From positions 1 to 21,293 of IMG/VR virus record IMGVR_UViG_3300042515_001939: a stretch of DNA of 21,293 bases; one strand, given 5' to 3'. Made by a program: the position numbers and the translations under genes. Every line of letters begins with the position of its first letter. Positions within the stretch are counted from its first letter, which is position 1. Below the pieces are notes generated by a model. That model searched no databases. It had not been told where the DNA came from and saw only the letters and a list, made by a program, of their open reading frames with translations. Source of the stretch: a virus. This document shows positions 8,441-20,715 of the stretch, one piece after another.

Positions 8441-9199
8441 ATGTCGCTCGCCGAGACTGTCTACACCGCGCGCTTTCGGAGCACTGAGACGCTCGAGCGG
8501 GGGCGCACGCAGACGATCTCGTGTCCGACCTCGCGCGCGGGCGCGACGGCGACGCCGACGAGCGGCACCGTCACCATCTACCGGCCCGATCAGAGCGTGC
8601 TCGTAACGGGCGCGGTGACGGTCGCGAGCATCGCGACGTTCTCGCTCACGGGAGCGACGACGACGGCCGAGGCGCTCGGCGAGGGGTTCTTGATCGAGTG
8701 GGCGCTCGTGATGCCGGACGGCGTGACGCACACCTTCAGGCAGGACGCCGCCGTCTGTAGGCGAACGCTCTACAACGTCGTATCGCAAGATGACCTCACC
8801 CAGCGGCACTCCGACTTGCCGTCGCTCCTCGGCGCCGCGGCGAGCTACCAGCCGTACATCGACGAGGCGTTCTTTACGATCTGCAACCGACTGATCGGCG
8901 CGGGCCGTCGGCCCTACCTCGTGATCCAGCCGAGCGCGCTCCGCGAGTGCCATCTAATGCTGGCGCTTCACCTCGTGTTTATCGACTACAGCACGTCGGC
9001 CGGCGACGGCGGGCGGTGGCAGGCCCTCGCCGCGCACTACCTGTCGGCGTACGAACAGGCCTACGGGGCGCTTCGATTCAGCTACGACGAGGCCGACGAC
9101 AACCGCGTCGACCCGACGAAGAAGAAGGCGGCCTCGTCGCAGATTTGGACGAACGGCCGCGGGCTCTCGCACGCGTCGTGGACTCGCTATGGCGGCTAA
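8441..9199 (+). CDS. Putative head-tail connector protein
   Basis: This 252-aa protein has a beta-rich N-terminal half (residues 1-105; short strands such as SGTVTIYRPDQSVLVTG and ATFSLTGATTTAEAL) and a helical C-terminal half. The latter begins at DDLTQRHSDLPSLL and includes EAFFTICNRLIGAGRRPYLV, ALRECHLMLALHLVF and WQALAAHYLSAYEQAYGAL. The helical part, with a conserved-looking RP-Y-I-x-PSALRE step, resembles adaptor (gp6-like) connectors that stack under the portal. ATG 8441 follows a GGGGG run at 8431-8435. It overlaps the next gene by 11 bases. The assignment as connector is an inference from order and helix pattern; the beta-domain at the front is not typical of the short connectors. 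Confidence 0.72.
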   Translation: MSLAETVYTARFRSTETLERGRTQTISCPTSRAGATATPTSGTVTIYRPDQSVLVTGAVTVASIATFSLTGATTTAEALGEGFLIEWALVMPDGVTHTFRQDAAVCRRTLYNVVSQDDLTQRHSDLPSLLGAAASYQPYIDEAFFTICNRLIGAGRRPYLVIQPSALRECHLMLALHLVFIDYSTSAGDGGRWQALAAHYLSAYEQAYGALRFSYDEADDNRVDPTKKKAASSQIWTNGRGLSHASWTRYGG

Positions 9200-9632
9200 G
9201 ACGGTTCGCCAGCTTCGCGAGGACGTGACGACGCGGATGCTCACGCTGTCGGGCTGGCGTGAGTCGCGCGTGCTCCCGGAGTCGTTCGGGCGCGACGCGG
9301 ACAGCATCGCCCACAAGGCATTCGTCGTGCACCCCATCGCGACGAAGGATCTCCGGCAGTACCGGGGCAAGCCTGCCGAGGGCACGCTCGTCGAGACGGA
9401 CCTCCAGATCCGGTACTCGTGGCGCATGGCGCCTAAGGACATGAGCAACAGCTACGACGACAGCCTCGACGGCGCCCAGGCCGTGATCAACCTGCTCATG
9501 GTCTACGACGCCAACTGGCCGAGCTCCTACAAGGTCCAAGTGCTCGAAACGTCGCAAGCCGGCACCGATACCGGTGAGTGGGTTATCGGCGTGGTAAGCT
9601 TCCGCATCGTCCACACGCTCCCGCTCCAATAG
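9189..9632 (+). CDS. Putative tail-completion or head-closure protein
   Basis: This 147-aa protein lies between the connector candidate and the tail tube gene, where tail terminator or head-closure proteins sit. Its pattern is an N-terminal helix (TVRQLREDVTTRML), then mixed strands: TLVETDLQIRYSWRM, a helix DSLDGAQAVINLLMV, SYKVQVLETS and the last strand GEWVIGVVSFRIVHTLPL. This alpha/beta order with a long helix in the middle and a strand running to the C-terminus fits tail terminator folds (lambda gpU type), which cap the tail tube. ATG 9189 lies inside the previous gene by 11 bases and has only a weak ribosome site, suggesting translational coupling. The function is inferred from context. 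Confidence 0.75.
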   Translation: MAAKTVRQLREDVTTRMLTLSGWRESRVLPESFGRDADSIAHKAFVVHPIATKDLRQYRGKPAEGTLVETDLQIRYSWRMAPKDMSNSYDDSLDGAQAVINLLMVYDANWPSSYKVQVLETSQAGTDTGEWVIGVVSFRIVHTLPLQ

Positions 9633-9640
9633 GTGGAATC

Positions 9641-10135
9641 ATGGCTCAAAGCACGACGATCAAGAATTTTCGCGACGGCACGCTGACCTTCACGGACAAT
9701 ACCGGCACGCCGCTCAGCATGTCGATCGTGTACGAGGCGGGCGACTTCTCGATCGACAACCTGAACGAAGGGCTCGTTGAGACGACGGCCTACCTCGATC
9801 GCGGCGAGTTCGCGACGTTGCGCAAGACCAACCGCGTGTTCCCGTCGTTCTCGTTCACGGCGCACATGACGGACCTGTCGGACGCGACCGACAAGTTGCT
9901 CTACGACCTCGCGCGCAAGACCGGCGCGTGGGCGTCGGCCGTGTCGACGCTCGGCGCCAACGCCGACGCCATGACGTACAAGCTCACCTGGGTTTGTGAG
10001 GGGACCAACTTCGGCGACACCGCCGACCACACCCTCGTGATGGATTCCTGCCGCATCACGATCTCGATCTCCGAGGGCGACCCCAACTCCTTCTCCGTGT
10101 CCGGCATCGTCTACGGCACCATCACGGCGACCTGA
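9641..10135 (+). CDS. Major tail (tube) protein
   Basis: This 164-aa protein has the length, order and strand-rich composition of siphovirus tail tube proteins: GTLTFTDNTGTPLSMSIVY at the front, then SIDNLNEGLVETTAYLDRGE, VFPSFSFTAHMTDL, a short helix TDKLLYDLARKTG, TYKLTWVCEGTN and the closing TLVMDSCRITISISEGDPNS and FSVSGIVYGTI. Its subunits stack in rings to form the tube. The ribosome site AGGTGG (9631-9636) 4 bases upstream fixes ATG 9641 and is stronger than those of the flanking genes, as expected of an abundant product. Its stop shares a base with the next ATG (TGATG). The chaperone pair that follows is the usual neighbour of a tail tube gene. Confidence 0.85.
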   Translation: MAQSTTIKNFRDGTLTFTDNTGTPLSMSIVYEAGDFSIDNLNEGLVETTAYLDRGEFATLRKTNRVFPSFSFTAHMTDLSDATDKLLYDLARKTGAWASAVSTLGANADAMTYKLTWVCEGTNFGDTADHTLVMDSCRITISISEGDPNSFSVSGIVYGTITAT

Positions 10136-10500
10136 TGCAGTCCCGTACCGTCCAGCTCGGCCCGCACACGGTCACGCTCCGCGCGCCGCCCTCGTTCGCG
10201 CTGGGGCGCGTGGTGTCCATGGCGCTGTCCCAGTCGCCGCTCCTGGGTCTCGGCGCGGCGCTCGGCGTGTGCTGGGGCGGCAAGCCGCTCAAGGCCTCGC
10301 TCAAGGCCTGCCAGCACGACGCGTGCGCCTACGGGGCGGCCGTCGTCGACGAGCTCCACGCGCTCGGCATTCCCGAGGGCGAGATCTGGACGGCGGCCTC
10401 GGCGGCGGTCGAGCTGCTCACGGCCTCGACGCCGACGGAGGCGGGCGTAGCTGCCGCTGCGGATTTTACCGCGCCCCCGGCGGCGGGCTCGACGCCGTAG
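10135..10500 (+). CDS. Tail assembly chaperone, first frame (gpG-like)
   Basis: This 121-aa protein lies between the tail tube and tape measure regions, the usual place of the gpG-type chaperone, which coats the tape measure protein during assembly. It has an N-terminal strand pair (RTVQLGPHTVTLRAPP), then helices (FALGRVVSMALSQSPLLGLG; KASLKACQHDACAYGAAVVD), and a low-complexity Ala/Pro/Thr tail. ATG 10135 overlaps the tail tube stop. A second open frame, one base back (-1), runs past the stop to 10685, and the run CCC CCG at 10474-10479 in the coding frame is a candidate slip site. Slippage there would join residue 115 to the second frame for a product of about 183 aa. This is the lambda G-GT arrangement. 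Confidence 0.75.
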   Translation: MQSRTVQLGPHTVTLRAPPSFALGRVVSMALSQSPLLGLGAALGVCWGGKPLKASLKACQHDACAYGAAVVDELHALGIPEGEIWTAASAAVELLTASTPTEAGVAAAADFTAPPAAGSTP

Positions 10501-10502
10501 CC

Positions 10503-10685
10503 ATGGAGATCGGGCTCGCCTACTGTGGGGAGCCCGACGCGTTCTACGCGTGGCCTGTCGAGACACAAGAGCGCGTGCTCGGATGGTGGCGCGCGAAGCA
10601 CACGCCGCCCGCGCCGGCGCCGAAGCGAGGCAAGTCCGCAGCCGAGGGCGACGCGGCGGCGCTTGCGTTCTGGGGGCTCGGGTGA
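10503..10685 (+). CDS. Tail assembly chaperone, second frame (GT extension) or separate small protein
   Basis: From ATG 10503 the product is 60 aa: MEIGLAYCGEPDAFYAWP, then VETQERVLGWWRAKHTPP, then a Pro/Lys linker and a closing ALAFWGLG. The W-rich helical phrase with a WPxETQ step is typical of the T domain of tail assembly chaperones. The ATG lies 2 bases after the gpG-like stop and has no good ribosome binding site, so it may be expressed by a -1 frameshift from the upstream gene. The open frame extends back well before 10500, as that needs. If independent, it would rely on translational re-initiation. Its stop overlaps the GTG of the next gene. Confidence 0.7.
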   Translation: MEIGLAYCGEPDAFYAWPVETQERVLGWWRAKHTPPAPAPKRGKSAAEGDAAALAFWGLG

Positions 10686-11371
10686 GGCCTCCCGGAACGC
10701 GCCGGTTCGTTTCAGAGACGACGACCGTAACGCTGGACCGCGCCCTCGATGACGCGCTCCTCGCGTTGGCGCGCGACGTTGCGGGCGGCGTGATCGACGT
10801 GCTCGAGGGGATGGCGTCGCAGACCGTCGATCAGACGCGCGCCAAGTGGTACACCATCGTTCGCAAGCGTTCCGGGCGCTCGGGCGCCGGCACGAAGTAC
10901 CGGATGGAGATTCGCGGCGACTCGATCCGCGCGATCGTCTACAACGACGCAAAGGCGCTTGCGAAGCGCGACGTCAACGTGGACGCGCAAGGCCGCCTTC
11001 TCCCAGGCAGGCAGCAGAAAGCCGGGCAAGTCGTCGCTACGCAAGAGTCCTACGCGTACTTTGTCCACGCGCCGGGCGCGCTCTCGACGATCGCGAAGTC
11101 GGTCCCCTTGGAGGAGTACCGAAAGCTGATGAGCCTGTGGCGCAAAGAGCGCCGCCTCCCGCCGGGCTACATCGCGGGCGCGTACAAGGACCGCAAAGGC
11201 CGCTCGCGGCCTGTCGGCATCGCGCGCATCGTGCGCAACCCGCTCGCGTCCGACGGCAAGAAGGTGTGGGACACCCTCGCCGTCAAGGGGTCCAAGGCCG
11301 TGATAAAGTCGGAACTCGTTGAGCTCGACCGCGCCCTACAGGCGGCCGGGAAAAACCTCGGGAGGCGCTGA
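10682..11371 (+). CDS. HK97 gp10-like tail/neck protein candidate
   Basis: This 229-aa protein starts at GTG 10682, overlapping the previous stop; an earlier in-frame start at 10550 would only read an out-of-frame part of the chaperone pair. It has an N-terminal helix (ALDDALLALARDVAGGVIDV), a section RAKWYTIVRKRSGRSGAG and a strand-rich core (YRMEIRGDSIRAIVYND). The phrase ESYAYFVHAPG resembles the YAxFVHxG step of HK97 gp10-like proteins, which help finish the tail. After it come basic helices and a long C-terminal helix. The position just before the tape measure gene is later than usual for gp10-like proteins, so another minor tail role is possible. The stop shares a base with the tape measure ATG. 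Confidence 0.72.
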   Translation: MRPPGTRRFVSETTTVTLDRALDDALLALARDVAGGVIDVLEGMASQTVDQTRAKWYTIVRKRSGRSGAGTKYRMEIRGDSIRAIVYNDAKALAKRDVNVDAQGRLLPGRQQKAGQVVATQESYAYFVHAPGALSTIAKSVPLEEYRKLMSLWRKERRLPPGYIAGAYKDRKGRSRPVGIARIVRNPLASDGKKVWDTLAVKGSKAVIKSELVELDRALQAAGKNLGRR

Positions 11372-13236
11372 TGGCGACGGCAGAACTCACCATCACCGCT
11401 AACATTGAGGGCCTCCGGCGCCAGCTCGAATCGATCAAGGACATCACCGCCGACCAAGCGACGGCGATGGCCAACCAGCTCAACAAGTCGATCAAGGCCG
11501 CCGAAAACGCGTCGCGCGCCGCCGCGAAGGCCTCAAAGGTCGCCGCCGACGAGGCGAAGGCGGCCGGGCGCGCGGCGGCCGATGCGCTGAATGTCGCCTC
11601 CGAGTCGGCCACGCGCTTCGGCGACAAGGCCGGGGCGGTAGGCTCGAACGCCGGCAAGCTGGCCGGTATCCTCGACATGCTCGTACCCGGCCTGGGTGGC
11701 GTGGCGCGCGGCGTGGCCGATGTCGCAGACACCGCCGAGGTGGCCTCCGTCGCCACGAAGGGCCTCGGCCTGTCGATGAGCTCGACGCTCGCCGTGCTCG
11801 GCCCCGTCGCCATCGCCGTCGCCGCGTTGGGGGCAACCTATGCGTATCTCTCGTCGGAGCTCGACGCGGCCGAACAGAAACAAGCGGCGGCGGCGGAAGC
11901 GGCGACGACGCAAGCGGAGGCCGCCGCGAGGTGGGCGGCGACGACGCAAGAGGCCGCCGACGCTGTCGCGATTGCGACTGATGCCAGCAACGGCGAGGCC
12001 ATCGCCATCCGCAAAGCGAACAAAGCCGTAGACGAGGGCGCCGCGGCGGTTCGGGCGTTGGCGGTGGTCAGGCGCGACGAGGCGGCGGCGGCGTCCAGGG
12101 CCTTTGGCACCTCGGAGTCGGACGCGGCTAAGGCTGCGTACGCTGAAGCCCAGCGCGAACAGGGGAAGCTCGACGCGCTGGACGCGCGCATCGACCGCAC
12201 GAAAACCGAGCGAGAGCTTGTGATCACCGGCGAGTACGCCAAGGGCCGCGCGGCGAAAGAGACGGCCGACGCGCAGATTCGAGCAGCCAACGCGGCGGCG
12301 AAGCGCGCGGCCGACGAAGCCGCCCTCGCCGAGGTCGAGCGCGTCATCCTTGAGCAGACGCAGACGTACCGTTCGGCGCTCACGTCCCTTCAGGAGACGA
12401 CGCGCGCCGCCAACGACGCGCAACTCACGGGCGCGGACGCGGTCGAGGCGGCGTTGGCGCGGCAGATCGAGAAGGTCAACGAACTTGCGGCGGCCCAAGT
12501 CGAGCGCGGCGTGGGCGGCACAGAGCAGATCCTCGCAGTCGAGGCCGCGCGGATCGAGGCCGTGACCGCCCTCGAAGCCAAGGGCGCCGCCGACATCGAC
12601 GCCATCTACGAGGCGGCGGCCCAGCGGCGCAACGAGGAGCGCGAAGCCGAGCTCGTCGCCGAGAAGGCGTACCAGCAGATGCGTGCGGAGGCAACGGCCT
12701 CGGCAACGTCAAGCCTGCTCGGCGCCACGTCGGAGGCCTTCGCCCAAGCGGCCGAAGAGCAGGCCAAGACCAATCAGGACGCCGCCGCCGCGAGCTTCGC
12801 GGCCTCGAAAGCCGCGGCTGTAGCGCAGGCGGTGGTAAACACGGCCCTCGCGATTAGCAGCGCCAACACCCTACCGCCCCCGGCGAACTTCATCGCCATG
12901 GCGGCGGCGGGCATCTCCGGGGCGACGACGCTCGCCTCGATCGCCGCGGCGCCGCCGCCCTCGTTCAACGACACGCCGGGCGTGCAGGTGATGGGGCAGC
13001 GCGGGAACGTGTCCCTGGCAAGCGGCGATTATTTCGCGGCGGCGCGGTCGCCGACGGAGCTACAGCGCCAGGTGGGCGCGTCGGCGTCGGGCGGGCCTAC
13101 GGTGCTCCAAGTGCGCCTCGGGCACAAAGTCCTCGATCAGTCCGTGGCCCGCACCATCCAAGAGGGCGGGCGCCTGTCGCGTGAGATCTCGGGCCGAGTC
13201 AAGTCGGGCACCACGGGACACCGGAGTCGCGCGTGA
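11371..13236 (+). CDS. Tape measure protein
   Basis: This 621-aa protein sets tail length and reaches the cell with the DNA. It is Ala-rich and almost wholly helical: coiled coil at residues 10-90, a Gly-rich hydrophobic part (GILDMLVPGLGGVARGVADV), and a likely membrane segment at about 130-160 (TLAVLGPVAIAVAALGATYA). Long Ala/Glu/Lys helices follow to about residue 480, then a second hydrophobic part (FIAMAAAGISGATTLASIAA) near the end. At about 1.5 A per helical residue the tail would be near 90 nm. ATG 11371 overlaps the previous stop and has GGAGG (11361-11365). A 16-base stretch (11899-11914) recurs at 11935-11950, giving two AATTQ-type units 12 residues apart. I see no lysozyme or peptidase domain. 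Confidence 0.88.
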   Translation: MATAELTITANIEGLRRQLESIKDITADQATAMANQLNKSIKAAENASRAAAKASKVAADEAKAAGRAAADALNVASESATRFGDKAGAVGSNAGKLAGILDMLVPGLGGVARGVADVADTAEVASVATKGLGLSMSSTLAVLGPVAIAVAALGATYAYLSSELDAAEQKQAAAAEAATTQAEAAARWAATTQEAADAVAIATDASNGEAIAIRKANKAVDEGAAAVRALAVVRRDEAAAASRAFGTSESDAAKAAYAEAQREQGKLDALDARIDRTKTERELVITGEYAKGRAAKETADAQIRAANAAAKRAADEAALAEVERVILEQTQTYRSALTSLQETTRAANDAQLTGADAVEAALARQIEKVNELAAAQVERGVGGTEQILAVEAARIEAVTALEAKGAADIDAIYEAAAQRRNEEREAELVAEKAYQQMRAEATASATSSLLGATSEAFAQAAEEQAKTNQDAAAASFAASKAAAVAQAVVNTALAISSANTLPPPANFIAMAAAGISGATTLASIAAAPPPSFNDTPGVQVMGQRGNVSLASGDYFAAARSPTELQRQVGASASGGPTVLQVRLGHKVLDQSVARTIQEGGRLSREISGRVKSGTTGHRSRA

Positions 13237-15005
13237 TCCTCTACCCGTCGCAGCTCACCGGGCGCCGCGTCTACTGGCTGCTCACCGTCGACGTGGGCGG
13301 CGTCCTGATGCGCATGGCCGACGACGAGGTCGACGTCGTTACGGCGTCGGGCCAGGTGCTCCACTACTCGGCGGGCCTCGACGGCATCGAGACAACCGAG
13401 GGCATCGACCTGTTCGGCGACAGCGTGGGGCAGCTCTCCGTGCCGCTCGAGTTCATCGCGCCGCCGGGTGTGAGCATCGCCGCCCTCGTCGCGCGCGGCG
13501 GTGACCTGTCGGCCGGGCGTGGCGAGCTCGCGCGGTGGGTGTCGGGCACTACCTACGAGGCGCGGCGCGTAGTGCTCGTCGGCGGCCTCACCGACCCCGA
13601 GTACGGCGACGACGGCGAGGCCGTGGCCACGTCGCTCGAGGAGCGCCTCGCGTACGACGAGACGCTCACGAGCGCGGCGTCACTGGCCACCACGGCGACG
13701 AACTGGGCACACACGGCGGATCTCCTCGACGACTGGATCGATGTGCCCTACCCCATCGTCATCGGCCGCCCCGGCTACCAGGGCGGGAGCTCCTACGTGA
13801 CCGGCTCGCCGGCTGTGTGGGCAGATCATCGAGACGTCGCCGTTGGGGGCGCGTTCCCTGGTCGGGCCGTCGGCAACATCTGCGTACTTGCCGGGCATCA
13901 CGTGTCGGCGAACTACGTCTACCTGAACCACGACCAGTATACGGCCGCCGACAAGCGTTTCCGAGTGTTCAACGGCTTCGACTTGGGCGGCAACCCCATC
14001 GCGTTCGCGGCGTGGTATCTGACGACGACGAGCCCCGACGCGTTCGAGTATTCATCCTCGTACGTCTACACGGTCTTTATCGACCCCGACCCCGCGACGA
14101 CGACGGGCGGCCCTACCGTCTCGTTCGGCTCGCTCTACGTCGACCTCGAGGCGACGTTCACGTCAGACGAACAGCTCCCGCTCTACGTCGTCTGGAAGGA
14201 CGAAGCCACGGTAAACGGCGGCGGCGGCGGGCTTGTGCGCGGTGGTGTACTTATCCGCAGCGCCGGCGATGTACTTGAGTACTTGTTGTCGCTCACGTCG
14301 ATCCCGGTGGACGCCGGGCGCTTCGCCGCCGCCGCGCCGCTCCTCGATGCGTTCCAGCTCGACGCGACGATCACGGAGCGCGTGAACGTGTGGGAGCTCA
14401 TCCAGGATGAGATCCTGCCGCTGCTACCCGTGTCGCTCGTGAGCGGCCCCGAGGGGCTCTACCCGGTCGTGTGGCGCTACTCTGCCGGCCCCGGTGACGC
14501 CGTGCTCGTACTCAACGCCGACACCGATCCCGACGTGTCGCGCGCCGGGCGCGTCGCCTACGACAGCAGCGACAGGAAGAACCGCTTCACCCTTGAATAC
14601 CAGCTCTCCTACCGCACGGGCAGCTATCAAGCGTCGCTGACCTACGGCGCCGCCGCCGACGCCGCAGACGACGCCTCCGTCACCGTGCATCCCGCGTGCA
14701 CCTACGCGCGGGCGCGAACCGGCCTCGTGGTCGAGCAGTCGATGTCAAGCGCGTGGGTGTACGACAGCGCGACGGCCCGCGCCGTGCTCGAATGGCAGGC
14801 CGCCGCCTACGCGCTGCCGACGCGCACCGTTGCCTACCTCGTTCCCGAGGTGGCCTTCGTCCACGTTGAGCGCGGCATGATCGTGGCGCTCACGGACTCC
14901 AGCATCTACCTCGCGGGCGCCCTCTGCATGGTGCGCGACGTTCTGACGGATGGGACGGGTTACCTGACGCTCACGCTCCAGCTCCTCGAGGCACCGAATG
15001 GCTAA
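13233..15005 (+). CDS. Large tail protein, probable tail-tip/baseplate hub
   Basis: This 590-aa protein follows the tape measure protein, where distal-tail and hub proteins lie. Residues 1-125 are strand-rich (RRVYWLLTVDVGGVLMRMAD; YEARRVVLVGGLTDPEYG), with a pattern I recall from other phage hub-like proteins. Then comes YPIVIGRPGYQGG (about 172-184), a Gly/Tyr-rich middle with many strands, and a section at about 350-590 resembling hub proteins (VDAGRFAAAAPLLDAFQLDA; VWELIQDEILPLLPVSLVSG; RKNRFTLEYQLSYRTG). It ends with VERGMIVALTDSSIYLAG and TGYLTLTLQLLEAP, a final strand pair common in tail-tip proteins. GTG 13233 overlaps the tape measure stop and has GGAG (13223-13226). Its stop overlaps the next ATG (ATGGCTAA). 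Function is inferred from order. Confidence 0.78.
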   Translation: MILYPSQLTGRRVYWLLTVDVGGVLMRMADDEVDVVTASGQVLHYSAGLDGIETTEGIDLFGDSVGQLSVPLEFIAPPGVSIAALVARGGDLSAGRGELARWVSGTTYEARRVVLVGGLTDPEYGDDGEAVATSLEERLAYDETLTSAASLATTATNWAHTADLLDDWIDVPYPIVIGRPGYQGGSSYVTGSPAVWADHRDVAVGGAFPGRAVGNICVLAGHHVSANYVYLNHDQYTAADKRFRVFNGFDLGGNPIAFAAWYLTTTSPDAFEYSSSYVYTVFIDPDPATTTGGPTVSFGSLYVDLEATFTSDEQLPLYVVWKDEATVNGGGGGLVRGGVLIRSAGDVLEYLLSLTSIPVDAGRFAAAAPLLDAFQLDATITERVNVWELIQDEILPLLPVSLVSGPEGLYPVVWRYSAGPGDAVLVLNADTDPDVSRAGRVAYDSSDRKNRFTLEYQLSYRTGSYQASLTYGAAADAADDASVTVHPACTYARARTGLVVEQSMSSAWVYDSATARAVLEWQAAAYALPTRTVAYLVPEVAFVHVERGMIVALTDSSIYLAGALCMVRDVLTDGTGYLTLTLQLLEAPNG

Positions 15006-18000
15006 GACGCAGCCGACTCACGACTTGCGCGGCCTGCTGGTCCCCGAGGCCGGCACGCTGACGGCGACGTACACGGCGACCTCCCAAGCGGGGCCGCGAG
15101 CTGGCGCGATCGTGCCCGATCAAGTCACCGGCCTCTCGCTCTACGGGTCGGGCGCCCTCGACGCCAACTCCCAGGCCGCGCTCGGCGGCGACATGATCCT
15201 CAACATCGCGGCGGCCGGGAGCGTCGGCACCGCTCAGTGCCGGTGGCGGTTCGACGGCGAGGTGGCGCGCAACTACGACCCGCCCGTGATGATGGCGGGC
15301 TGGGAGTACATCGACCGCACCACGACGGCGACGCGCTACCGCTATCCGCACATCGTGCGCCGCGCCGAGACCGGCCTCCTCGCCGTCGTGTCGACGTACA
15401 ACACCAACGACCTCCGCGTGCACGCCCAGGGCACCACGGGCAAGTGGACGATGGCGACGCTCGCGACGAGCAACTTCGCCTCGAAGGCCTGCCTCGTCGA
15501 TATGCCGTCGGGCCGCCTCCTCGCGCTCTACGTGGTGCCGTCCTCGCCGGCGGGCTCGTCGACACAGATCCGGATGGCCTACTCTGACGACGACGGCGCG
15601 ACGTGGACCACGGGCTCTGACGCCGTGCTTCCGTCCGCGATCGGCGTGGCGCCGTCGGACATCCAGCGCATCCGCGCCGTGGAGCTCGGCGGCCAGATCG
15701 CCATGCTCATCCACTACGTCTCGGCCGGCGTCGACGTGATCTACCAGTACGCGAGCCGCGACGGCGGCGGCACGTTCGCCACCATCGAGGCCGTCGGCCT
15801 CGTCGCGCGGGGGTTCCCTGACCTCGCCGTGAGTCAGGGCTCGATCTACGTGGCGCTCCTGCGCTACGACGCCTCGTTCACGCCCGTGACGATCCGGCCC
15901 TACGTCTACCGCCTCGCGTCGGCGTCGCAGCCTGTGACGAGCTCGCAGGGCGTCAACGCCGCAACCGCCGCGGGCAACGCGGTGTTCGGCTCGTACGCAG
16001 GCACGGCGTTCACGGCCGGCGAGCTGGCCATCCTCGCGACGGATGACGGGACGCTCTACCTGTACGGCGTAGACTTCGCGGGCGGCGGGACTGGCGAGGT
16101 CATCACGCGCGTCTCCGTTGATCGCGGCGCCAACTGGGACCAGAACTTCCGCAACTCGCGCGCGGCGGTGGGCGGCACGGTGGCGCACTACTCGGGCTCG
16201 GCCTCGACGGCCTGGCGCGACCTGTCCGTCGCTCCGGAGCGCGGGCGCGCCGTCCTGGCGCACACCTACATCGGAACCGTCGTCAACGACTACACGAGCC
16301 TCTGCGCGGCCTACCTCGGCGGGTGGTCGACGGTGGGGATGCCCGCGCCGGGCGATCAAGACGCGTGGGAGGTGGCGGGCTGGGACGACAGCTACGTCCC
16401 GATGGACCTCCCCGACGACGCCGGGCCTACGTGGACGCGCACGCTCACGGGCTCGGCAACCGAGGCGCTCGGCGATGCTGGCGTCACGTTGACGGCGACG
16501 GGCGCCGACCGCGTGTTCTTTACGACGGCGCCCACGACGACCGGCTACCTCGAGGACGGCATTCTCTGCGAGGCCCGCGTCGTCGCCACGTCCGGCACGT
16601 CGGCGATAGACCTCCGCGTGTGCGACGGTACGAACGGCTACCGTGCCAGGGTAGAGATCACGACGACGGGCGTAACGCTCTCCGACGTGGGCGGCGGCGC
16701 CTTCACGGCGACGACGGCGGTAGATGCCACGTTGGGCATCGTGGTGCGCATCGCGCTCGGGAAGGCGACCGGCGCATGGTCTACCAACGTCGGCCGGGTG
16801 CGCGCATGGGTGCGCGTCGATGGCCCCTACACCGGTGGCGCCGTCAACCACGGCCCGCGACAGGACCGCGAGTGGACGCAGATCGGCACGTCCTCGACGC
16901 TCCAGAGCATCGCCACGGCCGCCAACCGCATCGCCTGGGGCGCGCTCACGGCCGCCGCGACGTCGACGTGGGGGTGGGTGTACTTCTCGGCCGGACGGGA
17001 GACGGCCGGGAACATCCTGACGAGCGCCACGGGCACCACGCGCGGCCACGTCGTGCCGAGCTCGGCGAGCCCCGTGCACATCACGGACGGTCTCCGCGTC
17101 CACGGCGTCGACGGTCCCACCGTCCAGGGCGACTCGTTCCGCACGCGCGCCGACTACGAGTACCCCGTGTCGGCGATCAATCCGGCCGTGAGTCCGTCAC
17201 CGCGGCGCCGGTGGCGCTCAACCTCCGACGCTCAACAGGACATCATCCTCACCGGCGTGTCGCTCGGCGCCCGCTCGGGCGACCTCTACGGCTTGTACCT
17301 CGCGGGCTGCAACTGGCGCACGGCGACGCTCTACCGCGACTCGAGCGCGACCAACAAAGTCTGCGACATCGACCTCGGCGCCGGCATGTCCGCGCTCGAC
17401 TTCACGCGCACGCGTGGGCTCGTGTTCCCGATCGCCGGTGCGAGCGGGGGGATGCCGTTCTACGCGGGGGCACAGCGCCTCGCCGGCGCAACTGTCGAGT
17501 ACACGCAGGCAGTCGGGCCTACCGTCGTCGCTCGCGAGGTGGCCGGGAACACGTCGGGCGCTTGGATCGGCGGCTCGGCGACGGGCACCTATGCGGCCGT
17601 GCGCATCGACCTCGACGCGTTCGAGGCGGGCGACCCGACGACGGGGCAGATGGGCCTCCGGATGCCGAGCGCCGTGATCCTGTTCGACGCGCTCGTCGGG
17701 ACCGATACGCTGATGCTCCGGATTCCGGGCCAGGTCACGCCCGGCGACTACTTCTCGATCGGGACGATGATCGTGGGGCGCGTGCGGCTGTTCGGCAGGC
17801 AGTACTCGCGCGGGCGCGGCCTCACGTTCACGCCGGCCTACGAGCTCACCGAGACGCGCAGCGGCACACGCCGCGCTCGGCGGCTCGGCCCGACACGCCG
17901 CGCCATGGAGATGGCGTGGGACGATGGCATCGACACGACGGGCCTAAACACGGCCGGCACGGCGCCGGACTACTACGGCCTCGGGTACTCGGGCGCCGAC

Positions 18001-18282
18001 GGCCTCACGGCCATCGCGGACACCGGGCGCACGCTCGCCGGCCTGATCGAGCAGACGGACGGCGCCGTGCTGCCGGTCGTCGTGCTCCCGGCCATCCCGC
18101 AGCAGGCGTCCGCGCCGGGTACGACGGGCGTGCAGCTCCTCAACCCGGAGGCGCACCTCTACGGGCGCATCCTGACGGAGACGCTCCGCGTCGACAGTGA
18201 CGCGAGCGTGCGCGGGCAGGAGCTCCGCGACCCCGGCGAGGTGGTGCAGGTGTCCACAGTGATCGTGGAAGAGGAGCTCTGA
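14998..18282 (+). CDS. Large tail adhesin with sialidase-like beta-propeller
   Basis: This 1094-aa protein is the longest in the window. A YRYP motif at residues 114-117 (TRYRYPHIVRRAETGLLAVV) resembles the FRIP motif of sialidases, whose arginine binds the sialic acid carboxylate. Three Asp boxes follow: SDDDGATW (196-203), SRDGGGTF (253-260) and SVDRGANW (373-380). Together they indicate a six-bladed propeller of about residues 100-450. Residues 480-690 look like a lectin-type beta-sandwich (TATGADRVFFTTAPTTTGYL; EARVVATSGTSAIDLRVCDG; VRAWVRVDGPYTGGAVN). The last 400 residues are strand-rich. It is probably a tail fibre or spike that binds or trims a host surface glycan. D138 could act as the acid/base residue, but the other catalytic residues cannot be placed, so activity is open. 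ATG 14998 has GAGG (14988-14991) and overlaps the previous stop. Confidence 0.83.
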   Translation: MAKTQPTHDLRGLLVPEAGTLTATYTATSQAGPRAGAIVPDQVTGLSLYGSGALDANSQAALGGDMILNIAAAGSVGTAQCRWRFDGEVARNYDPPVMMAGWEYIDRTTTATRYRYPHIVRRAETGLLAVVSTYNTNDLRVHAQGTTGKWTMATLATSNFASKACLVDMPSGRLLALYVVPSSPAGSSTQIRMAYSDDDGATWTTGSDAVLPSAIGVAPSDIQRIRAVELGGQIAMLIHYVSAGVDVIYQYASRDGGGTFATIEAVGLVARGFPDLAVSQGSIYVALLRYDASFTPVTIRPYVYRLASASQPVTSSQGVNAATAAGNAVFGSYAGTAFTAGELAILATDDGTLYLYGVDFAGGGTGEVITRVSVDRGANWDQNFRNSRAAVGGTVAHYSGSASTAWRDLSVAPERGRAVLAHTYIGTVVNDYTSLCAAYLGGWSTVGMPAPGDQDAWEVAGWDDSYVPMDLPDDAGPTWTRTLTGSATEALGDAGVTLTATGADRVFFTTAPTTTGYLEDGILCEARVVATSGTSAIDLRVCDGTNGYRARVEITTTGVTLSDVGGGAFTATTAVDATLGIVVRIALGKATGAWSTNVGRVRAWVRVDGPYTGGAVNHGPRQDREWTQIGTSSTLQSIATAANRIAWGALTAAATSTWGWVYFSAGRETAGNILTSATGTTRGHVVPSSASPVHITDGLRVHGVDGPTVQGDSFRTRADYEYPVSAINPAVSPSPRRRWRSTSDAQQDIILTGVSLGARSGDLYGLYLAGCNWRTATLYRDSSATNKVCDIDLGAGMSALDFTRTRGLVFPIAGASGGMPFYAGAQRLAGATVEYTQAVGPTVVAREVAGNTSGAWIGGSATGTYAAVRIDLDAFEAGDPTTGQMGLRMPSAVILFDALVGTDTLMLRIPGQVTPGDYFSIGTMIVGRVRLFGRQYSRGRGLTFTPAYELTETRSGTRRARRLGPTRRAMEMAWDDGIDTTGLNTAGTAPDYYGLGYSGADGLTAIADTGRTLAGLIEQTDGAVLPVVVLPAIPQQASAPGTTGVQLLNPEAHLYGRILTETLRVDSDASVRGQELRDPGEVVQVSTVIVEEEL

Positions 18283-18719
18283 TGCCGGCGACGACTGTTT
18301 GCCCGGTGGCCTGGATTGAGATCGGCTCGCAGGCCGACGCGACGGTGCGGGCGCTCAAGATCGTGGCGGGCTCGGGCGTCACGCTGACCACGTCGACCTC
18401 GGCGGGCGTGGCGACGACGACGATCGCGGCCTCGGGCGGCGGCGGGAGCCCTACTGGTGCGGCGGGCGGCGACTTGGGCGGGACGTACCCGAATCCCACG
18501 GTGACCCAGGCCCGCGGCCTCCGCGAGACGGGCGGCCCTACGACGCTCACGGTGGGGGCCGTCGCCGACGGGCAATACCTGCGGCGCTCGGGCTCGTCGA
18601 TCGTCGGCGCCTATCTCGCGCTCGTCGTCGGCGTTACCGGCGGCGATCTCACATTCACCGACGGCAGCGCGGGCGTAGAGCTCCCGGCCGCCGCCGTTAC
18701 CGCGGGGACTGTCGCATGA
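18282..18719 (+). CDS. Tail-fibre protein with GDLGGTYPNPTV motif
   Basis: This 145-aa protein carries GGDLGGTYPNPTVTQARGLR at about residues 62-81, a motif common in phage fibre proteins, where it marks a turn before a trimeric shaft. After it comes TLTVGAVADGQYLRRSGSSI, the usual partner phrase. Before it are a beta-stretch (VRALKIVAGSGVTLTTSTSA) and a Gly/Ser hinge (SGGGGSPTGAAG). The protein is short, so it is probably a linker or secondary fibre rather than a whole fibre. ATG 18282 shares a base with the previous stop and has GGAG (18273-18276). Its stop overlaps the next gene (ATGA), which may supply the rest of the fibre. Confidence 0.8.
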   Translation: MPATTVCPVAWIEIGSQADATVRALKIVAGSGVTLTTSTSAGVATTTIAASGGGGSPTGAAGGDLGGTYPNPTVTQARGLRETGGPTTLTVGAVADGQYLRRSGSSIVGAYLALVVGVTGGDLTFTDGSAGVELPAAAVTAGTVA

Positions 18720-19981: not shown

Positions 19982-20287
19982 ATGCCTGACTCTCCCTCGT
20001 GGTACGGCAAAGCATTCAAGCTCGAAGGACCGGCCGGCATCCTCGCGATTCTGTTCACCAGCGGCCTGATCGGGGCGAGCGCGGCGGGGGGCGTCGGCGA
20101 GATCACGCGGGAGGCCGACATGGCGGCGGTGGACGCTCGCGTGGACGCGCGCATGGGCGACGTGGTCGAGCAGATCCGGCGGGAGCAGCAGGCCGCGAGC
20201 GACGCAGCCCAGGCCCTCGCGGGGGCGCGGTACGATGAGATTCTCCGTCGCCTTGACCGCATCGAGCGGCGACTGGATACCCAGTGA
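19982..20287 (+). CDS. Membrane-anchored coiled-coil protein, holin-like
   Basis: This 101-aa protein has one hydrophobic segment near the N-terminus (AGILAILFTSGLIGASAAGG, about residues 19-38), then a charged coiled coil to the end (MAAVDARVDARMGDVVEQIR; QQAASDAAQALAGARYDEIL; RRLDRIERRLD). One membrane helix plus a soluble coiled coil, next to an endolysin gene, suggests a holin or a membrane lysis partner; a Rz-type spanin is another option. ATG 19982 is chosen over GTG 19958 because AGGA (19972-19975) lies 6 bases upstream. The stop shares bases with the endolysin start. The upstream 64-base gap is the only one in the right half and may hold a weak promoter, but I could not define one. 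Confidence 0.75.
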   Translation: MPDSPSWYGKAFKLEGPAGILAILFTSGLIGASAAGGVGEITREADMAAVDARVDARMGDVVEQIRREQQAASDAAQALAGARYDEILRRLDRIERRLDTQ

Positions 20288-20715
20288 TGCCCTCGCGCAA
20301 CATCCTCGACCTGCACCCGGACCTCCAGCCGCTCGCGCTCGCGTTCCTGGCGCGGTGCGCCGCCCGCCAGGTGGACGTGCTCATCGTGTGCACGTACCGG
20401 AGCGGCGCCGAACAGGACGCGCTCTACGCCATCGGGCGCACGAAGCCGGGGGCGAAGGTGACGAACGCCCGCGCCGGGCAGTCGGCGCACAACCACACGA
20501 TCGACGGGAAGCCCGCCGCGCGCGCGTTTGACGCCGTTCCGCTTCTCCACGGCAAGCCTATCTGGGAAGATCCGCGCGACGCGGACACCGACTGGACGAA
20601 CGACTTCGGCTGGCGCGTGATGGGGGAGGTGGCCGCCGAGCTCGGGCTCGTGTGGTACGGCAAGCCGGGCTCGGCGTTCCGCGAGGCACCCCATTTCCAG
20701 CTGGCGGGCGCGTGA
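20287..20715 (+). CDS. Endolysin, M15-type peptidase (L-alanyl-D-glutamate peptidase-like)
   Basis: This 142-aa protein would cut the peptide part of the cell wall at the end of infection. It shows TYRSGAEQDALYAIGRTKPG (a signature of M15/VanY-like phage peptidases), then the zinc-site residues: H68 in QSAHN, D82 in ARAFDAVP and H136 in EAPHFQL. Between H68 and D82 there is a 7-residue insertion (HTIDGKP) relative to the compact SxHxxGxAxD form. The length is right for a single-domain enzyme, and there is no signal peptide, so it needs a holin. ATG 20287 shares a base with the previous stop; GTG 20284 is an equal choice that adds one residue. Its stop overlaps the next gene (GTGA). Confidence 0.88.
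   Translation: MPSRNILDLHPDLQPLALAFLARCAARQVDVLIVCTYRSGAEQDALYAIGRTKPGAKVTNARAGQSAHNHTIDGKPAARAFDAVPLLHGKPIWEDPRDADTDWTNDFGWRVMGEVAAELGLVWYGKPGSAFREAPHFQLAGA

Follow-up and report, generated by a model that had tools for sequence, protein, structure and literature searches.

Gene content of the virus record

The window analysed here is the whole of virus record IMGVR_UViG_3300042515_001939, a stretch of 21,293 bases. It carries a long open reading frame (ORF) for a tail protein with a propeller domain, lying directly downstream of a tape measure gene and a putative tail hub gene. The positions of these genes, and of the domains and residues discussed below, are given in Table 1. The hub assignment draws on phrog_1101, a tail protein family matched by 3 of 27 members, while comparison with the T5 baseplate hub pb3 gave non-significant E-values of 0.22 and 0.33.

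Table 1. Features of the propeller-bearing tail protein and of the adjacent tail genes.
Feature	Position in window	Strand	Remark
Tape measure protein, 621 aa	11371..13236	+	E 6.2e-9 to phrog_1506, tail length tape measure protein
Putative tail hub gene, 590 aa	13233..15005	+	adjoins propeller gene in 54 loci
Propeller-bearing tail protein ORF	14998..18282	+	1094 aa; homologues at 74 viral loci
N-terminal region ahead of propeller, aa 1-90	14998..15267	+	AlphaFold2 strands
Six-bladed sialidase-type propeller, aa 92-462	15271..16383	+	VIA-align and family profile
YRYP, aa 114-117	15337..15348	+	R115 where sialidases carry first catalytic Arg (HHalign to YRIP)
D138, base of shortened catalytic-Asp loop	15409..15411	+	Asp in 5/43 members
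Asp box 1, SDDDGATW, aa 196-203, blade 2	15583..15606	+	pattern match
Asp box 2, SRDGGGTF, aa 253-260, blade 3	15754..15777	+	pattern match
G272-D275, blade 4 inner strand	15811..15822	+	G272/F273 at expected catalytic Glu place (strand register)
R289, possible second triad Arg	15862..15864	+	strand register; Arg in 10/43
T365, expected third Arg place	16090..16092	+	placed by distance from box 3
Asp box 3, SVDRGANW, aa 373-380, blade 5	16114..16137	+	pattern match
W406, expected Tyr nucleophile place	16213..16215	+	strand register
Jelly-roll domain like Vibrio cholerae sialidase lectin domain, ~aa 458-677	16369..17028	+	VIA-align
Conserved C-terminal region, aa 691-1094	17068..18279	+	putative virion anchor

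Other genes were also identified in the record. A 386-aa ORF at 763-1923 may encode a ParB-type N-terminus fused to an adenine methyltransferase, as judged by eye from its LDPAS and NPPY motifs. Immediately downstream of the propeller gene, 18282-18719 encodes a small protein. It contains a GGDLGGTYPNPTV stretch of a kind that we take to be known from phage tail fibre proteins; relatives of this protein are found in 6 of the 71 loci compared. Finally, 20284-20715 encodes an endolysin of the VanY / phrog_465 kind.

Sequence motifs and fold of the propeller

An earlier note on this DNA, made from the sequence alone, had proposed that a YRYP motif and three Asp boxes mark a sialidase-like fold in a phage tail protein. 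All of these motifs are found in the ORF. The strict Asp-box pattern S.D.G..[WF] occurs on average 0.02 times per shuffle, and three matches were reached in 0 of 20,000 protein shuffles. The YRYP motif by itself is weak, since [YF]R.P is present in 17.5% of the shuffles; in the HHalign profile alignment it falls exactly onto the YRIP of real sialidases. The note had placed the feature at 15330-16140. The motifs do lie within this range, but the domain itself is bigger and covers aa 92-462, such that the expected site of the catalytic tyrosine, aa 406, falls just beyond the coordinates first proposed.

The fold was predicted using AlphaFold2 with an alignment of 41 family members (alignment A3), giving a mean pLDDT of 83.9. 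In our reading of the model, the strands form six four-stranded blades, the last of which is closed by the strand at 91-106. The best VIA-align match of aa 92-462 is human Neu2 (4ncs; Z 29.1, 308 residues aligned, rmsd 3.0, 9% identity), while the bacterial sialidase NanA and a GH93 arabinanase reach Z 28.5 and Z 28.2, respectively. As these matches tie inside one Z unit, VIA-align does not name the nearest enzyme family. A family profile of the full-length protein matches sialidases in the PDB at E 4e-9; a profile restricted to the propeller (37 sequences) does so at E 2.6e-12.

The sialidase signal obtained with the window protein as a single query is weak. Its match to Pfam BNR_2 (PF13088) scores 21.2 bits, below the gathering cut-off of 31.4, although 26 of 41 family members match BNR_2 at E <= 0.01. 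A search of PHROGs with the window's propeller protein gave no match, and the best hit of a single-sequence PDB search is a rhamnose-glucuronate lyase at E 0.057 only. Chance occurrence of the motifs is nevertheless ruled out by the shuffles together with the predicted fold. Thus, the sialidase-like fold claimed in the earlier note is upheld, and structure prediction and profile comparison confirm that this core tail protein contains a six-bladed propeller of the sialidase type.

The protein family and its conservation

Scans of viral contigs identified 72 loci with the propeller as the query, and the full-length protein gave 74. From these 74 we removed eleven loci that were short, truncated or remote, and added the window; the resulting 64 sequences were reduced to 43, and alignment A3 contains all of these except L033 and L068. 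It should be noted that the scans used two patterns only, one of which is Asp box 1, so that the apparent conservation of this box is biased. Asp boxes 2 and 3 are strongly conserved, with S253 present in 43/43 members and W380 in 41/43. Asp boxes aside, the propeller has few polar positions that are conserved throughout the family. Outside these boxes, Asp and Glu together reach at least 28/43 only at columns 94, 103, 275 and 349. No clear difference in variation was seen between the faces of the propeller.

The inner strand of blade 3 carries a hallmark of the family, the sequence RxRAxY (aa 224-229, 15667-15684), in which R224 is found in 33/43 members and R226 in 35/42. Column 229 is Tyr in 32/43 members and Glu in the window. 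This motif is perhaps part of a binding pocket. Another virus record of 20,939 bases (IMGVR_UViG_3300044647_002122, loci L001 and L082) encodes an identical 1094-aa protein.

Outside these contigs, two UniProt entries from uncultured marine viruses, A0A0F7L5L8 ('Sialidase domain-containing protein') and A0A0F7L6H2, are full-length structural matches (TM 0.68-0.70, 23% identity). With these two look-alikes already on record, the family is not unseen; the literature searched yielded no description of it. Among 50,697 phage records, we found no match to the window protein, to its relatives L106, L099, L098, L124 and L086, to the C-terminal region of L101 or to window aa 921-1094. For the terminase and the capsid-like protein of the window, the matches in these records are remote only.

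Catalytic residues compared with sialidases

Reference sialidases were drawn from the genomes searched for matching the phylum of the genome that carries L140, a homologue described below. They comprise 21 loci, 17 of which carry [YFW]R[IVLT]P and were aligned; one locus, L149, matches the Micromonospora viridifaciens sialidase 1eur at E 1.6e-101. In this set R14, D38, E201, R217, R280 and Y308 (L173 numbering) reach 95% conservation or more, which for R14 follows from how the set was chosen. We take the catalytic roles of these six residues from the sialidase literature. PDB titles mention a nucleophilic tyrosine and, for the Micromonospora enzyme, name Y370 as a residue of the active site.

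Blades 1-2 of the window propeller are aligned with sialidases by HHalign (probability 96.4-96.7), whereas alignment of the whole domain in global mode, or of blades 4-6, gave meaningless registers. Since blades 4-6 cannot be aligned by profile, three residue equivalences rest on the strand register, i.e. on predicted strands, turns and distances from the Asp boxes. In this register, E201 corresponds to G272/F273, R217 to R289, R280 to T365 and Y308 to W406.

In blade 1, R115 is aligned with the arginine of the sialidase FRIP motif, yet this residue is Val in five of the seven close relatives (L079, L080, L081, L083 and L122). Arg is found in the other two, namely: L082, whose protein is the same as the window's, and L084. 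Across the family, column 115 is Arg in 11/43 members; the mean is 2.1 Arg per column, and 16 of 372 columns reach 11. The blade 1 loop that bears the catalytic Asp (D38 in L173) is eight residues shorter in the window. In blade 4, D275 lies two to three residues from the expected place of the catalytic Glu, and its column is Asp or Glu in 30/43 members.

The window protein has no Arg at 363-368 and no Tyr at 404-408. Each of these residues is present in its range in 14/43 members, and no member (0/43) combines Arg at 114-116, Glu at 271-275 and Tyr at 404-408. The counts at 363-368 and 404-408, like those of Arg at column 115 and of Asp or Glu at column 275, weigh against a complete loss: partial relics of the catalytic site persist in the family, and some relatives may keep more of the site than others. 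The earlier note had offered two possibilities, an enzyme acting on nonulosonic acids or similar sugars, or a glycan-binding relic of one. Our comparison favours the relic: the window lacks the Tyr and the third Arg at their expected places and the Glu at its own, with D275 close by, its Asp loop has lost residues and its R115 is not kept even in most close relatives. An active sialidase is thus unlikely.

Jelly-roll domain and C-terminal region

A second model, covering aa 455-1094, has a mean pLDDT of 78.9. In this model, the domain that follows the propeller resembles a sialidase lectin domain by fold. Its best VIA-align matches are the Vibrio cholerae sialidase and the isolated sialic-acid-binding domain of that enzyme (Z 17.1 and 16.9), followed by an unrelated chain (Z 14.3) and the CBM2 module of the evolved Dit of phage J-1 (Z 13.6). 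In sequence, a profile of 37 members recovered no sialidase lectin chain at E up to 1, and no Pfam family matches the domain.

Searches of the PDB and Pfam gave no notable match to the C-terminal region. phrog_8610, whose function is not assigned, matches this region in 11 of 35 members, the window not among them. It is the best conserved part of the protein among close relatives: identity to four of them is 83-91% over aa 921-1094, compared with 67-69% for the propeller and 57-62% for the jelly roll.

Gene neighbourhood, lineage and host

Synteny was analysed by tblastn of 17 window genes against 71 loci (70 viral contigs and L140), with several of the gene names being labels by position. The propeller protein was detected at all 71 loci, g8441 at 64, the tube-like protein at 61, the hub-like protein at 54 and the capsid-like protein at 50. 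In the 54 loci with both genes, the propeller gene precedes the hub gene in 47 and follows it in 7, and all seven belong to the close clade of the window. The reversed order in this clade (13233-18282 in the window) indicates that the gene order was swapped once.

The tape measure gene lies upstream of both the propeller and hub genes in 20/20 loci where it was detected. Furthermore, in most loci the propeller gene starts at most ten bases from a long Ala-rich ORF that resembles the tape measure gene. In most siphophages, dit and tal come after the tape measure gene (PMC7291167). As dit is usually the next gene, the propeller protein occupies the usual Dit place in most of the family, the window's clade being the exception.

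With regard to the host, one homologue, L140, is located on a phage-like contig that was assigned to a Gemmatimonadetes metagenome-assembled genome (MAG) by binning. Among 395 genomes searched as matching the phylum of the L140 genome, two gave a match, the second being a partial copy, L194. At 8753-11581 (reverse complement) of L194, a partial 943-aa family member lies in a bacterial chromosome with no clear prophage around it. Genome contigs scanned with patterns from alignment A2 yielded no relative. A NeuB-family match in the L140 MAG (42.5 bits) is little informative, and the matches in these genomes are too thin as evidence to name a host.

Functional interpretation

We propose that the ORF probably encodes a catalytically dead, sialidase-related, putative glycan-binding tail-tip protein. 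The computed features behind this proposal are the fold, the absence of the Tyr and the third Arg from their places (by the strand register of blades 4-6), the lack of conservation of R115 and the fixed place of the gene near the tape measure gene. As the key cutting machinery is missing, the protein most likely grips a sugar of the host surface instead of cleaving it. The product would belong to the core of the tail tip in an uncultivated lineage of long-tailed phages. Its aa 92-462 form a six-bladed propeller that is related to sialidases and has an incomplete catalytic set. The propeller pocket, the lectin-like domain or both may bind a host surface glycan without cutting it, and the conserved C-terminal region may anchor the protein in the tail tip.

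A different view is that the propeller and jelly roll form a purely structural scaffold of the tail tip or baseplate with no sugar binding left, and that another protein, e.g. a product of the small downstream fibre genes, finds the host. Such a role would fit a protein that is a core syntenic tail gene at 71 loci and not an accessory, that keeps few polar propeller residues family-wide beyond the Asp boxes, and whose variation is not clearly focused on one propeller face. We nonetheless consider it rather unlikely, because the propeller and the jelly roll are more variable than aa 921-1094, as would be the case for receptor-facing parts, and because two folds of sugar-related proteins within one tail protein suggest glycan binding.

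Enzymatic activity fares less well. A propeller that cuts a sugar of the host surface as a glycosidase or lyase, but with a different set of catalytic residues from that of sialidases, as is the case in other enzymes with six-bladed propellers, would agree with the near-equal VIA-align scores of the GH93 arabinanase and the sialidases, with the lyase as the best single-sequence PDB match (at its E-value of only 0.057), and with the frequent Asp or Glu at column 275. As no inner-strand carboxylate pair is conserved family-wide outside the Asp boxes, this appears improbable to us. We give even less credence to a retaining, sialidase-type enzyme acting on nonulosonic acids: YRYP, D138, R289 and D275 are present and the fold is sialidase-like, but the lack of an Arg at 363-368 and of a Tyr at 404-408 in the window, the Val in place of R115 in five of seven close relatives and the shortened catalytic loop all speak against it.

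A non-cutting, sugar-gripping tail-tip protein thus remains our preferred reading, and the protein, which belongs to the core, syntenic tail genes in an uncultivated lineage, looks like an enzyme turned lectin. A more far-reaching version, which we put forward only tentatively and regard as doubtful at present, is that a dead propeller and a sialidase-type lectin domain are built into the core tail-tip (Dit-slot) protein of the whole uncultivated siphovirus lineage. If this were true, the baseplate of each virion would necessarily include a ring of pseudo-enzymes that read sugars, in place of an add-on fibre. In either version, aa 85-465 and aa 458-677 are concrete domains for probing the receptor of phages that have never been grown.

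Comparison with known systems

The UniProt proteins A0A0F7L5L8 and A0A0F7L6H2 seem to be proteins of the window protein's kind that await characterisation. Compared with GH33-type sialidases (Micromonospora viridifaciens 1eur, NanA, NanI and human Neu2), the window protein shares a six-bladed propeller, matched along the entire domain at Z 27-29, the Asp boxes and a FRIP-like motif in the same position. It differs from them in that the Tyr nucleophile, the third Arg and the Glu are missing at the expected places and the Asp loop is shorter; identity is 9-15%, and the propeller is part of a phage tail protein.

A precedent for our preferred reading is the receptor-binding protein of Staphylococcus phage phi11, which also has a tail-protein propeller that was proposed to bind a surface sugar, with a cavity that could accommodate GlcNAc (PMC4901313). 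The authors of that study knew of two other beta-propellers in phage receptor-binding proteins when the structure appeared (PMC4901313). In contrast to the six sialidase-type blades of the window protein, the phi11 protein has five blades and an N-terminal triple-helix stem (PMC4901313). The AlphaFold2 model of the window protein has no helix before aa 90, i.e. no stem of the phi11 type.

The evolved Dit proteins of siphophages resemble our family in that the gene comes right after the tape measure gene, as in most of the family, and in having folds of the carbohydrate-binding type (PMC7291167). However, the carbohydrate-binding modules of evolved Dits are small beta sandwiches (PMC7291167), whereas the window protein has a 370-residue propeller. 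In addition, the order in the window's clade is tape measure, hub and propeller, which departs from that of the evolved Dits (PMC7291167).

Finally, phage K1F has an endosialidase tailspike that actively depolymerises the capsule and that also contains a beta-helix stalk and a C-terminal chaperone domain (PMC12632334), whereas the window protein lacks the catalytic residues and has other neighbouring domains. What the two have in common is a sialidase-type propeller within a phage tail protein (PMC12632334).
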